From assembly GCF_025153455.1 (NCBI RefSeq), contig NZ_JANZNT010000001.1, forward strand, positions 1-64,000: a stretch of 64,000 nt of DNA, in the 5' to 3' direction. Source of the stretch: Sphingomonas sp. BGYR3 (lineage in GTDB: Bacteria; Pseudomonadota; Alphaproteobacteria; Sphingomonadales; Sphingomonadaceae). Of the stretch, positions 4,106 to 62,812 are shown piece after piece. Numbering within the stretch: the first letter of the stretch is position 1; each line of letters begins with the position of its first letter. Position numbers and translations under genes: made by a program. A model generated the notes under the pieces. The model searched no databases, was not told the origin of the DNA, and saw only the letters and a program-made list of their open reading frames with translations.

Positions 4106-4354
4106 TCAGTTGCTGTCCGAGCTGTCATCTTCATCAGCGATGATGATGATGCCACCGACAACGGCAGCAGCAGCCACGACACCGATGATGATGCCCGTGC
4201 TGCCTTCAGCGCGGCTGGCCTTCTTCGCCGGGGTCGCCTGACGGGCAACCTTGGCGACCGACAGCTTGGCTGCCGAGTTTGCTTCGGCGGCAACGACCGG
4301 GGTCGCGGCAACCGACAGAGCGGCAACAGCCGTCATGAGTTTCATAATGCGCAT
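4106..4354 (-). CDS. Small exported/membrane protein with acidic Asp/Ser tail, function unknown
   Basis: This 82-residue protein has an N-terminal signal peptide (MRIMKLMTAVAALSVAA, probable cleavage after VVAA), a basic Lys/Arg-containing middle (residues about 28-48), then one strongly hydrophobic, Val/Ile/Ala/Gly-rich segment (GIIIGVVAAAAVVGGIIIIA, about 53-72), and ends in DEDDSSDSN. The layout fits a periplasmic or single-span inner-membrane protein with a short acidic end. The ATG at 4354 has an AGGGAG ribosome site six bases upstream; later Met codons at residues 4 and 7 are possible starts. It has its own strong terminator and a long leader, so it is transcribed alone. I recognise no named family; similar short proteins seem frequent in sphingomonads (recollection, not tested). 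Confidence 0.75.
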   Translation of the reverse strand: MRIMKLMTAVAALSVAATPVVAAEANSAAKLSVAKVARQATPAKKASRAEGSTGIIIGVVAAAAVVGGIIIIADEDDSSDSN

Positions 4355-4796
4355 AAGATACTCCCTTTGTAGACTCCGGCATCCACGATGCCGTGGAACC
4401 TGCAGATTCCATGAGCCGAGATCCGGTTAACGGATTTGCTGCCCCGCAGCAAGCTCAAAAAATGCCTGTCCCGGGCCTAGTCTCCACAAGCCCGAGCAAA
4501 TCACCTACGGATTTATTGTCAATCAATCGTTAAATCGAAACGTACTGCCGCATTTTCGATCGTTCCGTCGTAAATCGAACAAGAAAACCGCCAATTTTTG
4601 TCGACTCTATTGGCAAAACACCGGTCATGCGCGAAACGACCGTCGGTTTGCGTGTAATTCCGGCATGTTCTGTTGCCATTGCGCAACATATCTCAATTCT
4701 GTCGAGTAAAACGCGATGGCCGGCAGGGCGCTGTTTCCGCTAACACGCTGCGCCGCAATGGTTGAACCGCGATCCTCGCCGCCGCATATCGCGGCG
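4355..4796. other. Intergenic region with divergent promoters, locally AT-rich
   Basis: No gene is seen here. Bases about 4500-4620 are clearly richer in A and T than the surrounding DNA, as expected for a promoter zone between the leftward small-protein gene and the rightward protease gene. On the minus strand a perfect TTGACA hexamer occurs at 4517-4522 with no convincing -10 partner. If it is a -35 box, the small gene has a leader of more than 100 bases. Confidence 0.35.
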
Positions 4797-57422: not shown

Positions 57423-58577
57423 TTGAGCCTGCCCGAGTTCGATTTCGCGCTTGGCGAGAATGCCGACATGATCCGCGAGAGTGTTCAGCGTTTCGCCGCT
57501 GATCGCATCGCGCCGCTGGCAGTCCGCGTCGATGCAGAGGACTGGTTCCCGCGTCAGGAACTCTGGCCGGCGATGGGCGAACTCGGCCTCCATGGCATCA
57601 CGGTGGCAGAGGCGGATGGCGGCCTTGGCCTCGGCTATCTGGAACATGTCATCGCGTGTGAGGAGATCAGCCGGGCGTCCGCCTCCGTTGGCCTCTCCTA
57701 TGGCGCGCACTCCAACCTCTGCGTCAATCAGATCGCGCGCTGGGCCTCGCCCGAGCAAAAGGCGAAATATCTGCCCAAGCTGATTTCGGGCGAACATGTC
57801 GGCTCGCTCGCCATGTCGGAATCCGGTGCGGGCAGCGATGTCGTCGGCATGCGGCTCAAGGCTGAGGCGGTCGATGGCGGCTATGTGCTGAACGGCACCA
57901 AATTCTGGATCACCAACGCCACCTATGCCGACACGCTGGTCGTCTATGCCAGGACGGGGGAGGGGTCGCGCGGTATCACCACCTTCCTGATCGAACGCGG
58001 CATGGCCGGGTTTTCGGTGGGGCAGAAAATCGACAAGATGGGGATGCGCGGCTCGCCGACGGCGGAACTGGTGTTCGACGACTGTTTCGTCCCCGAATCA
58101 CAGGTCATGGGCCCGCCCAATGGCGGTGTCGGCGTGCTGATGAGCGGCCTCGACTATGAACGCGCGGTGCTTGCGGGGATTCAGCTGGGGATCATGCAGG
58201 CGTGCCTCGACACCGTCCTGCCCTATGTCCGCGAACGCAAGCAGTTCGGCACCCCCATCGGCAATTTCCAGCTGATTCAGGCCAAGGTCGCCGACATGTA
58301 TGTCGCGCTCAATTCCGCCCGCGCCTATGTCTATGCCGTCGCCCGGGCCTGCGATGCCGGCCGCACCACGCGCTTCGACGCGGCCGGCGCGATCCTGCTG
58401 GCATCCGAAAACGCCTTCAAGGTGGCGGGAGAGGCGGTTCAGGCGCTGGGCGGGGCCGGGTATACCAAGGATTGGCCCGTCGAACGCTATCTGCGCGATG
58501 CCAAGCTGCTCGACATCGGCGCCGGCACCAACGAAATCCGCCGGATGCTGATCGGCCGGGAACTGATCGGCGCATGA
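57423..58577 (+). CDS. ivd: Isovaleryl-CoA dehydrogenase
   Basis: This 384-residue acyl-CoA dehydrogenase takes the first step of leucine degradation after the keto-acid dehydrogenase. The catalytic Glu246 lies in [11 protein letters not shown], the alternative position used by isovaleryl-CoA dehydrogenases, and [12 protein letters not shown] and GTKFWITN form the FAD site. The start appears to be TTG at 57423 (M-S-L-P-E-F-D-F), with an AGGAG site eight bases upstream; there is no in-frame ATG close by. The TGA overlaps the mccB ATG. Confidence 0.93.
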
Positions 58578-60193
58578 CCGCCCCCGTCCTGCCCACCGCC
58601 GTTCAGCCCGACAGCGAGGGGTTCCGCGCGAACACCGCGCACAACCGTGCGCTGGCGGAAAAACTCCGCGCCGACGTTGCCCGTGCCGCGCTTGGCGGCA
58701 GCGAGTCCGCACGGGCCAAGCACAGCGCCCGCGGCAAGCTGCTGCCCCGCGACCGGGTGGAACGGCTGCTCGATCCCGGCTCGCCCTTCCTGGAAATCGG
58801 TCAGCTTGCGGCCTTTGACCTTTATGACGGCGAAGTGCCCGGCGCCGGCGTCATCGCCGGCATCGGCCGCGTTTCGGGGCGTCAGGTGATGATCCTCGCC
58901 AATGATGCGACGGTGAAGGGCGGGACCTATTTCCCGATGACCGTCAAAAAGCATCTCCGCGCGCAGGAGATTGCGCTGGAGAACCGGCTGCCCTGCATCT
59001 ACCTTGTCGACAGCGGCGGCGCGAACCTGCCGCATCAGGCGGACGTGTTCCCCGACCGCGACCATTTCGGCCGCATCTTCTTCAATCAGGCGAACATGAG
59101 CGCGCGCGGCATCCCGCAGATCGCCTGTGTGATGGGCAGCTGCACGGCGGGCGGCGCCTATGTGCCCGCCATGTCCGACGAAACCGTCATCGTCCGCAAT
59201 CAGGGGACGATCTTCCTCGCCGGCCCCCCGCTGGTGAAAGCCGCGACGGGCGAGGAAATCAGTGCCGAGGATCTGGGCGGCGGCGACCTGCACGGCCGAA
59301 AATCGGGCGTGGTCGATCATGTCGCGGAAAATGACGAACACGCCCTCACCATCGTCCGCGATATCGTCTCCTACCTCCAACCTCCCCGGAACGGGGAGGG
59401 GGACCATGCGCAGCATGGTGGAGGGGTAAAATCCCCCCGCGCGCCGAAATACGCGGCGGACGATCTGTACGGCATTATCCCCCAGGATGTCCGCGCGCCC
59501 TATGACGTGCGCGAAGTCATCGCCCGGCTGGTCGACGCGTCAGAGTTTCACGAGTTCAAGGCGCTCTATGGCACCACGCTTGTCTGCGGCTTTGCCCATA
59601 TCTGGGGGATTCCGGTCGCCATCCTGGCGAACAACGGCGTGCTGTTCAGCGAGGCCGCGGTCAAGGGCGCGCATTTCATTCAGCTTGCGCAGCAACGCGG
59701 CATCCCCCTCCTGTTCCTGCAAAACATCTCCGGCTTCATGGTTGGCGGGAAGTATGAGGCAGAGGGGATTGCCAAGCACGGGGCAAAGCTGGTCACCGCC
59801 GTCGCCACCGCCACGGTGCCAAAGATCACGGTGCTGATCGGCGGCAGCTTCGGCGCGGGCAATTACGGCATGTGCGGCCGGGCCTATTCGCCCCGCTTCC
59901 TGTTCACCTGGCCCAATGCCCGGATCAGCGTGATGGGCGGGGAACAGGCCGCCAGCGTGCTCGCCACCGTCCACCGCGACGCGGATAACTGGACGCCCGA
60001 GCAAGCCGAGGCGTTCAAGGCCCCGATCCGCCAGCGGTACGAGGATGAGGGCAATCCCTGGCACGCGACCAGCCGCCTTTGGGACGACGGCATCATCGAT
60101 CCCGTCCAGACCCGCGACGTGCTGGGCCTCGCCCTCGCCGCAACGCGCGAAGCCCCGGTCGCCGACACCGGCTTCGGCATCTTCCGAATGTGA
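58574..60193 (+). CDS. mccB: Methylcrotonoyl-CoA carboxylase, carboxyltransferase subunit, with in-frame palindrome insert
   Basis: This 539-residue carboxyltransferase takes CO2 from biotin on MccA and gives it to 3-methylcrotonyl-CoA. Family segments: [70 protein letters not shown] and [12 protein letters not shown]. Between SYLQ (about residue 269) and [11 protein letters not shown] an extra stretch [16 protein letters not shown] is encoded by the 47-base palindrome at 59381-59427. The frame is kept because flanking bases make the insert a multiple of three, and the rest of the protein looks intact, so it is probably tolerated in a surface linker. Confidence 0.93.
59381..59427 (+). repeat. 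Double-hairpin palindrome, copy 1 (inside mccB)
   Basis: This 47-base element is identical to 60214-60260. Hairpin A: CCTCCCCG-GAA-CGGGGAGG (eight-base stem, triloop). Then GGG and hairpin B: ACCATGC-GCA-GCATGGT (seven-base stem), closed by GGAGGGGT. It lies wholly within the mccB coding sequence. Confidence 0.95.
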
Positions 60194-60213
60194 TCGGGAT
60201 CGACGACAATAAA

Positions 60214-60260
60214 CCTCCCCGGAACGGGGAGGGGGACCATGCGCAGCATGGTGGAGGGGT
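60214..60260 (+). repeat. Double-hairpin palindrome, copy 2 (upstream of the DUF559 gene)
   Basis: This is an exact 47-of-47 copy of 59381-59427, located 20 bases after the mccB stop and 28 bases before the DUF559 ATG. Together with the inverted copy at 60612-60664 it forms terminal inverted repeats of a unit of about 450 bases that contains the DUF559 gene. Confidence 0.95.
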
Positions 60261-60288
60261 CTTCGCCACCACGCGCGAAACCATCCGC

Positions 60289-60669
60289 ATGGCGCGCCGC
60301 GAGCGCCGATCCGGCAACCCGCCCGAAATACTGCTTTGGCGCGCGCTGAAACTCAGGCCGGGGGGCTTCAAGTTCCGGCGGCAACATCCGATTGGTCCCT
60401 ACAGTCTCGATTTCGCCTGTCTCAGCGCCCGGCTTGCCATTGAAATCGACGGCGAAGCGCATGGTCGCGGCGATGCTCCCGACAAAGATCAGGTGCGCGA
60501 CACGGCGCTGATGGCTCACGGGTTTCGCACCCTTCGCATCCCGGCGCGCGATGTGATGCAAACGGTGGACGACGTCGTGGTCGCCATCGTTACTGCGTGC
60601 CAGGCCGCTGGACCCCTCCACCATCCGCCGATGGCGGATGGTCCCCCTCCCCGTGCCGGGGAGGTTTAG
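60289..60669 (+). CDS. DUF559 endonuclease-domain protein (Vsr-like fold)
   Basis: This 126-residue small cytosolic protein begins MARRERRSGNPPEILLWRAL. The core HPIGPYSLDFACLSARLAIE then IDGEAHGRGDAPDKD matches the DUF559 pattern (Y-x-x-D-F ... E-I-D-G-x-x-H), related to the Vsr/restriction-endonuclease-like fold, with Asp and Glu as probable metal ligands. DUF559 genes have unknown function. Here the last 19 or so codons (LHHPPMADGPPPRAGEV) are encoded by palindrome copy 3 and the gene lies between inverted palindromes, splitting mccB from mccA. ATG 60289 was preferred to a longer frame that would run back through copy 2 into mccB. Confidence 0.85.
   Translation: MARRERRSGNPPEILLWRALKLRPGGFKFRRQHPIGPYSLDFACLSARLAIEIDGEAHGRGDAPDKDQVRDTALMAHGFRTLRIPARDVMQTVDDVVVAIVTACQAAGPLHHPPMADGPPPRAGEV
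60612..60664 (-). repeat. Double-hairpin palindrome, copy 3 (inverted, diverged)
   Basis: Read on the minus strand this has the same hairpin A (CCTCCCCG-GCA-CGGGGAGG), the same GGG linker and closing GGAGGGGT. Hairpin B is different: ACCATCCGCC-ATC-GGCGGATGGT, a ten-base stem. The stem is kept while the bases have changed, so the structure appears to be what is maintained. It overlaps the 3' end of the DUF559 gene. Confidence 0.92.
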
Positions 60670-60838: not shown

Positions 60839-62812
60839 ATGATCCAATCCCTCCTCATCGCCAACCGGGGCGAGATCGCCTGCCGGATCATCCGCACCGC
60901 ACGGGCCATGGGCATCCGCACCGTCGCGGTCTATTCCGATGCCGATGCCAATGCGCTCCATGTCCGTCAGGCGGATCAGGCGGTGCATATCGGCCCGTCG
61001 CCCGCCCGCGAAAGCTATCTGGTGGGTGACAAGATCATCGCCGCTGCAAAGGCGACCGGCGCAGAGGCGATCCACCCCGGCTATGGCTTCCTGTCCGAAA
61101 ATGCCGAGTTTGCAGAGGCGGTGACCGCCGCCGGGCTGATCTGGGTCGGGGCGACACCCCATTCGATCCGCGCCATGGGCCTGAAGGACGCGGCGAAGCG
61201 GCTGATGGCGGCCGCTGGCGTCCCCGTCACCCCCGGCTATCTGGGCGAGGACCAGTCGCCCGAACGCCTGCATGCCGAAGCCGACGCCATCGGCTATCCC
61301 GTGCTGATCAAGGCGGTGGCCGGCGGCGGCGGCAAGGGGATGCGTAGGGTAGAGGCGAGCGCCGACTTCCCCGATGCGCTGGCCAGCTGCAAGCGAGAGG
61401 CCGCGTCCAGCTTTGGCGACGACCGCGTCATCATCGAAAAATACATCCTGTCGCCCCGCCATATCGAGGTGCAGGTGTTCGGCGACACCCATGGCAATGT
61501 CGTCCACCTGTTCGAGCGGGATTGCTCGCTCCAGCGCCGCCACCAGAAGGTGATCGAGGAGGCCCCCGCACCGGGGATGAGCGCCGAAGCGCGCGACGCG
61601 ATCTGCGCCGCCGCCGTCCGTGCGGCCCAGGCGGTGGACTATGTCGGGGCGGGCACCATCGAGTTCATTGCCGACGCCAGCGACGGTCTGCGCGCCGACC
61701 GCACCTGGTTCATGGAAATGAACACCCGGCTTCAGGTCGAACATCCGGTGACCGAGGAGATCACCGGCGTCGATCTGGTCGAATGGCAACTCCGTGTCGC
61801 CAGCGGTGAACCGCTCCCAAAGCGGCAGCAAGACCTGTCGATCAACGGCCACGCCATCGAAGCACGGCTCTATGCGGAGGACCCGGCCAAGGGCTTCCTG
61901 CCGAGTGTCGGGCGTCTGGATTATCTGGATTTAGGCAAGTCTGGACGTGTCGAAACTGGCGTCGAGCAAGGCGACGCCATTTCATCCTTTTACGATCCGA
62001 TGGTGGCAAAGTTGATCTGCCACGGCAAAACCCGGCATGCCGCACGCACGGGGCTAACGGCCGTTCTCAATGATGTTCAGGTTTTTCCGGTTAAGACGAA
62101 TGCTGGCTTTCTGAGACGACTGTTAAGTCTGCCCGAGTTCGTCAGCGGCGCAATCGATACCGGGCTGATCTCACGGATCGGTGAGGTCATTACGGAACAG
62201 CCTGTGTCAGACGCCGTGCTGCTGGCTGCGTTGAGTTGGCGGCTTGAGACCTACATGGCTGCCGAAGCAGCGGGTGATATTGCGATGGCGCCGGAAGCAT
62301 TGTTCGGCTTTCGGCTCAACCGGCCGCGAGCGCCCGCGCATCTGCCATTCACCATGAACGGGGCGCATCACGTTGCTTACGCACTGCCAACCCGTACCCG
62401 CGCGGATTGGGAATGGGCGCTTACAATTGATGGCAGAATCGATCTCAAAGCGGAGACACTGCCGACAACGTATGGACCGTCGGCAGAAGACAACCCTTGC
62501 GGTCCGGTCATGATATTCGACGGTGGCGACGCCTATGAGGTTCGATTCGGCGCCGACCATGATGCTGCCGGGATTGGAACAACCGCAGACGGTGCCATCC
62601 TAGCTCCCATGCCGGGCCGGATCACCGCCGTCGAAGTTACCGCCGGCCAGTCCGTCGCCAAGGGCCAGCGCCTGCTGACGCTGGAGGCGATGAAGATGGA
62701 ACACGCGCTGACCGCGCCGTTCGACGGGACGGTGGCCGAACTCAACGTCGCCGAAAACGGTCAGGTGACGGAGGGGGCCGTGCTGGTCCGCGTGGAACGG
62801 GCAGGGGAATAG
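60839..62812 (+). CDS. mccA: Methylcrotonoyl-CoA carboxylase, biotin-carboxylase/carrier subunit
   Basis: This 657-residue biotin-dependent carboxylase alpha chain has biotin carboxylase SLLIANRGEIACRIIRTA and HPGYGFLSENAEFAEA, the ATP-grasp loop AGGGGKGMR, EMNTRLQVEHPVTE, and the C-terminal biotin carrier with Lys619 in LEAMKMEH. It would charge biotin for MccB. Bases about 61905-62600 (residues about 356-587) have markedly lower GC and different codon choice from both flanks, although the frame is intact. The separation from mccB by the DUF559 unit is unusual. No promoter was identified in 60670-60838. Confidence 0.94.
   Translation: MIQSLLIANRGEIACRIIRTARAMGIRTVAVYSDADANALHVRQADQAVHIGPSPARESYLVGDKIIAAAKATGAEAIHPGYGFLSENAEFAEAVTAAGLIWVGATPHSIRAMGLKDAAKRLMAAAGVPVTPGYLGEDQSPERLHAEADAIGYPVLIKAVAGGGGKGMRRVEASADFPDALASCKREAASSFGDDRVIIEKYILSPRHIEVQVFGDTHGNVVHLFERDCSLQRRHQKVIEEAPAPGMSAEARDAICAAAVRAAQAVDYVGAGTIEFIADASDGLRADRTWFMEMNTRLQVEHPVTEEITGVDLVEWQLRVASGEPLPKRQQDLSINGHAIEARLYAEDPAKGFLPSVGRLDYLDLGKSGRVETGVEQGDAISSFYDPMVAKLICHGKTRHAARTGLTAVLNDVQVFPVKTNAGFLRRLLSLPEFVSGAIDTGLISRIGEVITEQPVSDAVLLAALSWRLETYMAAEAAGDIAMAPEALFGFRLNRPRAPAHLPFTMNGAHHVAYALPTRTRADWEWALTIDGRIDLKAETLPTTYGPSAEDNPCGPVMIFDGGDAYEVRFGADHDAAGIGTTADGAILAPMPGRITAVEVTAGQSVAKGQRLLTLEAMKMEHALTAPFDGTVAELNVAENGQVTEGAVLVRVERAGE

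Follow-up and report, generated by a model that had tools for sequence, protein, structure and literature searches.

A DUF559 nuclease gene bracketed by inverted cognate palindromes: a probable RAYT-like partner of a REP-like repeat

A small gene for a DUF559 endonuclease-like protein lies between two palindromes that face each other in the window, the 64,000-nucleotide stretch of Sphingomonas sp. BGYR3 DNA analyzed here. The question raised by this locus is whether the encoded protein is a dedicated partner of the repeats that enclose it, a passenger between them, or a gene with some other relation to them. The initial annotation had described facing palindrome copies, a coding frame that starts between them and ends inside the second, and a third identical copy about 0.8 kb away, and all of these were confirmed with the boundaries listed in Table 1. 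The segments at 60210-60244 and 60634-60668 are inverted copies with 94% complementarity across the hairpin part. Both palindromes of the unit contain two hairpins each, with folding energies of -15.9 kcal/mol (5') and -21.5 kcal/mol (3') and z-scores of -4.7 and -5.9 against shuffled sequences. The stop codon of the DUF559 gene (TAG, 60667-60669) lies at the outer boundary of the 3' palindrome, and the C-terminus of the protein is consequently translated repeat. The third copy matches the 5' palindrome at 49 of 49 nucleotides, starts 833 bp upstream of it, encodes 16 residues in the mccB frame, and is absent from all 29 aligned relatives of the same genus.

Table 1. Coordinates of the features at the DUF559 locus of the window and of the triplex motifs near E. 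coli ycjD
Feature	Position	Strand	Details
mccB-like carboxyltransferase gene (left host)	58574..60193	+	ORF and alignment to relatives; holds the third palindrome
Third palindrome copy	59379..59427	+	in frame within mccB
5' palindrome, full unit	60212..60260	+	two hairpins and mirror third arm
5' palindrome, hairpin 1	60214-60232		CCTCCCC-GGAAC-GGGGAGG, then GGG
5' palindrome, hairpin 2	60236-60252		ACCATGC-GCA-GCATGGT
5' palindrome, mirror third arm	60253-60259		GGAGGGG, exact mirror of purine arm GGGGAGG
DUF559 endonuclease-like gene	60289..60669	+	126 aa, first in-frame ATG to TAG
3' palindrome, inverted	60612..60668	-	hairpin 1 CCTCCCC-GGCAC-GGGGAGG; hairpin 2 longer; third arm GGAGGGG faces the DUF559 gene
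mccA-like biotin carboxylase gene (right host)	60839..62812	+	ORF; displaced by the insertion; adjoins mccB in empty-site relatives
ycjD triplex motifs, E. coli K-12 (locus L148)	4205-4241 and 4396-4424		both on the 3' side

The unit is compact, spanning about 460 bp, and consists of a gene for a nuclease of the Vsr/PD-(D/E)XK type inside two inverted cognate palindromes. The exact stem CCTCCCCGG..GGGGAGG has only four copies in the genome (3.12 Mb), three of them at this locus. Palindromes of the same type also occur elsewhere in the genome without the gene, some alone and others paired in inverted doublets with a spacing of about 80-100 bp, and these gene-free doublets share the stem types of the DUF559 palindromes and resemble REPINs.

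The window protein belongs to PF04480 (E = 4e-23; 81.8 bits against a curated cut-off of 20.6), and the Pfam scan returned matches only to DUF559, MTES_1575, and DUF2726. The residues that are invariant in 45 aligned members (E13, D41, E52, D54, H58, and R83) are all intact. A structure model (pLDDT 85) matches the DUF559 crystal structure 3hrl, the homing endonuclease I-Bth0305I (3r3p), and Vsr (1vsr), and the predicted fold is of the Vsr/EDxHD type. Neither the ORFs of the unit nor the Pfam scan revealed a transposase gene, and the scan detected no HUH/Y1 tyrosine transposase, the protein having a nuclease fold instead. The sole studied DUF559 protein is VsrA of Caulobacter, a Vsr-like, chromosomally encoded protein that is required for the SOS response when the methyltransferase ScmA is absent, and it has been proposed to act as a mismatch-repair nuclease rather than as a palindrome enzyme (PMC12907096). 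Two other assignments were considered and rejected. As a defense gene, the window gene showed only weak similarity to DpdF and methyl-directed-REase in PADLOC, and as a phage gene, it had a relative in only 2 of 50,697 phage records.

Since an exact-stem search alone masks the diversity of the family, bracketing was assessed by an unbiased, motif-free inverted-repeat test, which scores the best local alignment of the 200 bp preceding the domain to the reverse-complemented 200 bp that follow it. The null was obtained by shifting the same geometry within loci (5,178 windows), giving a 99% level of 13.5 and a maximum of 17; the window locus scores 35. All seven DUF559 genes of the same genome are bracketed by inverted palindromes at the 99% level, and the stem and loop sequence differs from one locus to another, with both ends of any one locus matching. 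This level is also passed by 21 of 30 alphaproteobacterial DUF559 loci, taken one per genome, and by none of 28 loci of ParE toxins, which are likewise a small, often mobile gene family and served as a control. Among Sphingomonadaceae, 41 of 44 DUF559 genes are bracketed. In other classes of the phylum, for which a separate null was computed, 6 of 14 loci pass its 99% level, and several others are one-sided. A scan of GTDB species genomes yielded 73 DUF559 loci among the best-scoring matches, 57 of which pass the 1% null, fractions that apply to well-conserved DUF559 genes. These loci reach several phyla, including Chloroflexi, Nitrospirae, Omnitrophota, and Desulfobacterota-type MAGs. Bracketing is absent in approximately 22% of the GTDB-scan loci and about one third of the alphaproteobacterial sample. 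Most DUF559 genes carry flanking palindromes, and the link that the initial annotation had drawn between gene and repeat was not refuted on this point.

The number of palindromes per genome was examined in 289 alphaproteobacterial genomes by counting the pattern CTCYCCN{2,16}GGRGAG, with the pattern read backwards serving as a control for composition. The excess of palindromes had a median of 36 in the 69 genomes with DUF559 and of 0 in the 220 genomes without it (p = 9e-24), copy numbers reaching hundreds per genome. The same tendency holds within families: enrichment is higher in the DUF559-positive members in 24 of the 26 families that have both states (Wilcoxon p = 4e-6). Copy number thus follows DUF559 presence, and the proposed link withstood this comparison as well. 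Thirteen of the 220 DUF559-negative genomes are palindrome-rich (G216, G338, G186, G290, G237, and eight others). A sensitive search of these thirteen found no full DUF559 gene, only fragments in four of them. Loss of DUF559, incomplete assemblies, or another partner may account for such genomes.

A closer relation between gene and repeat is visible in the similarity of palindromes among Sphingomonadaceae. Palindromes at alike DUF559 genes in different genomes have a similarity of 0.55, compared with 0.31 for different DUF559 genes within one genome and 0.26 for unlike DUF559 genes in different genomes. Because many modules occupy orthologous sites, the test was repeated with one locus per site, which preserved the correlation (n = 22, Mantel rho 0.52, p = 0.0002). 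The palindrome type tracks the DUF559 subtype and not the genome. Such matching is not predicted by a simple cargo model and argues against it.

The palindromes associated with DUF559 share a characteristic architecture, in which a pyrimidine arm and a purine arm, separated by a loop, are followed by a mirror of the purine arm (in the window, GGGGAGG ... GGAGGGG). Of 187 flank hairpins, 62% are followed by a good mirror arm, and 6% have one on the opposite side. The linker preceding the mirror arm measures either about 3 nt or 18-32 nt, the longer class containing a second hairpin. The mirror third arm would allow one strand to fold on itself as an intrastrand triplex, although the arm, read from sequence, indicates triplex potential only. 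A motif of this kind, the intrastrand triplex motif (TM or PIT motif), has been described from more than 260 genomes, where it also forms inverted pairs; neither a stable triplex in vivo nor an association with mobile elements was found, and no protein partner was named (Holder et al. 2015, PMC4666352). The ycjD gene of E. coli K-12 encodes a DUF559 protein. Comparison by eye with the published consensus identified an exact triplex motif 3' of this gene in K-12, together with a second motif at the 3' end that is degenerate in K-12 and exact in strain S1-CHI-01-A. No such motif lies 5' of ycjD, which makes the E. coli arrangement one-sided. The ycjD region is covered by 3,334 out of the 5,426 complete genomes of E. 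coli; in the ycjD-less strains that were examined, its place beside fabI is taken by a TetR regulator and an efflux adaptor gene.

Sites occupied in one species and empty in another provide a view of how the unit is distributed. The initial annotation had noted that the unit separates mccB from mccA, genes that are normally close, and had proposed a search for empty sites. Six relatives have such a site, with only 22-23 bp between the mccB stop and the IANRGE codons of mccA, which upholds the observation. Where a DUF559 gene is inserted at this position, it is bracketed by palindromes in six of six cases and stands in either orientation; two of the six (L014 and L015) were missed by the motif script and recognized by reading the sequence. 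Unrelated genes inserted at the same position carry such a palindrome in none of 11 cases. Three relatives (L010, L012, and L032) have a GIY-YIG nuclease there, with a different palindrome type. The mccB-mccA gap is an insertion hot spot in the genus and holds various unrelated small genes (L009, L011, L018, L019, L022, L025, L029, L030, L033, L034, and L037).

A further set of insertions is found in the ileS linker after PQWFIPMD, where many different in-frame palindromes occur in sphingomonads and short uninterrupted linkers in others. At this hot spot (L231 near base 548, G000:C1:1602447; L235-L262), the insertions are read as PSPSGEG-type peptides, and one relative has CGTC-like VTPAQAGV peptides. 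No target-site duplication was seen at mccB, mccB-mccA, or ileS in these comparisons, where even the nearest relatives reach an identity of only about 80%. DUF559 modules are often located at orthologous sites in different species, 41 loci falling on 22 sites. The module is mainly inherited vertically, and this distribution indicates that the unit is at most slowly mobile, like RAYT genes.

The explanation that best accommodates these observations, and that is probably correct, is that DUF559 is a dedicated nuclease partner of a REP-like palindrome, similar in role to RAYTs and unrelated to them. The protein would recognize its own palindrome in folded form, such as might arise in single-stranded DNA during replication, and would nick or cut it; repair of the break could then occasionally copy or insert the palindrome elsewhere. 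The palindromes would represent the spreading population, whereas the DUF559 module itself passes mostly from parent to offspring, as RAYT genes do. The RAYT-like part suggested for DUF559 by the initial annotation is supported to this extent, neither of the two comparisons that could have broken the link having done so and the matching of types disfavoring a simple cargo, with movement itself being what we infer. It is unlikely, by comparison, that DUF559 serves host maintenance, acting as a Vsr-like enzyme of repair or hairpin processing whose cleavage of folded palindromes averts replication trouble, with the palindromes spreading by other means and the gene kept near its substrate. The Vsr-like fold, the vertical inheritance of the modules, and the mismatch-repair role proposed for chromosomal VsrA in Caulobacter (PMC12907096) are consistent with this alternative. 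It leaves unexplained, however, why the gene is enclosed by inverted palindromes of precisely the type with which it pairs, why several DUF559/palindrome pairs coexist in one genome, and why DUF559 and palindromes occur together where relatives have an empty site.

A passenger role, in which another enzyme such as a RAYT or an IS200-type transposase mobilizes palindrome pairs and DUF559 is merely carried along, is quite improbable. Inserted DNA can ride in REP-like doublets, and palindrome-rich genomes without DUF559 do exist, but a passenger would not match the palindrome subtype, nor would copy number follow its presence. Nor would a passenger be expected to be almost the only one, as DUF559 would have to be in view of the negative ParE toxins and the other genes at mccB-mccA. 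Type matching, together with this same-site contrast, also speaks against the idea that the palindromes act as terminators or mRNA-stability hairpins, insulating the DUF559 gene or regulating it. Regulation of this kind would fit the presence of hairpins at the two ends of the gene and the position of its stop codon at the margin of the 3' copy, yet the same units lie away from DUF559, in doublets, in frame within coding genes, and at other sites, and reach hundreds of copies per genome. The gene-free copies largely refute the regulatory model, which is highly improbable. Chance co-occurrence or an artefact of GC composition has a negligible probability: GC-rich genomes (66% here) do yield some random G-rich inverted repeats, but the composition-matched reversed counts, the shifted windows, and the ParE control were all at background and refute this reading.

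DUF559 may not be the only nuclease in such a relationship. Stand-alone GIY-YIG genes are bracketed at 11 of 24 alphaproteobacterial loci (class-wide set L088-L117) by GTCATnCC..GGnATCC-like or related palindromes. Palindromes of this type are commoner in genomes with solo GIY-YIG genes (14 of 46 versus 2 of 50 genomes, p = 0.0006), and in a joint fit the effect of GIY-YIG (t = 2.9) is little above that of DUF559 (t = 2.5). The pairing of GIY-YIG with CGTC-REP-like palindromes is a weaker but important lead, parallel to DUF559. CGTC-tagged REPs have been reported to "apparently lack a dedicated transposase" (Di Nocera et al. 2013, PMC3733652). Tentatively, and with slightly less than even confidence, small stand-alone nucleases may be regarded as a general class of palindrome partners that replace a transposase, DUF559 acting for triplex-type repeats in several phyla and GIY-YIG for CGTC REPs, with spread occurring through cutting of folded DNA and its repair.

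Two abundant repeat families, the triplex motif (PMC4666352) and the CGTC REPs (PMC3733652), have had no known partner protein. The present data name a testable protein family for the former and a candidate for the latter, and they point to DUF559 as a hitherto overlooked partner by which one of the most common bacterial repeat families would be maintained or spread. A domain of unknown function thereby gains a concrete substrate hypothesis, linked to ycjD of E. coli. The data also suggest that a RAYT-like lifestyle evolved more than once, from unrelated nucleases. A literature search with thin coverage of subscription papers and bioRxiv preprints found no paper tying DUF559 to palindromes or GIY-YIG to CGTC REPs.

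Comparison with known systems places the unit among several of them without equating it with any. I-Bth0305I (EDxHD/Vsr fold) and Vsr of E. coli share the nuclease fold; the DUF559 gene differs from them in its bracketing by palindromes and has no link to mismatches or intron-insertion sites, and no intron or intein was seen at the window locus, where empty and occupied sites exist. The intrastrand triplex motif is similar in its architecture, CCCTCNCCC-loop-GGGNGAGGG-N3-GGGNGAGGG, and in its inverted pairs (PMC4666352). The window copies differ from it in having a hairpin linker in place of the 3-nt linker and TMECO consensus. Many DUF559 palindromes likewise have a second hairpin in that position, and the 3-nt form is present at other DUF559 loci. 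CGTC REPs (PMC3733652) are likewise palindromes without a known transposase that are common in Alphaproteobacteria, form head-to-head dimers, and occur inside genes as well. Their sequence, cGTCATnCC..GGnATCCA, resembles the GIY-YIG palindromes and not those of DUF559, and the CGTC tag, the AT-starting stem, and the CCA tail are all absent from the window palindromes. With respect to REP/RAYT systems, DUF559 differs as a nuclease without an HUH/Y1 domain, and its palindromes lack GTAG at their ends and possess a mirror third arm. The two systems nevertheless have in common a lone gene with inverted copies of a short palindrome on both sides, the occurrence of this palindrome genome-wide both alone and in inverted doublets, the presence of several gene/palindrome types in each genome, a mostly vertical inheritance of the gene, and, probably, cognate specificity.
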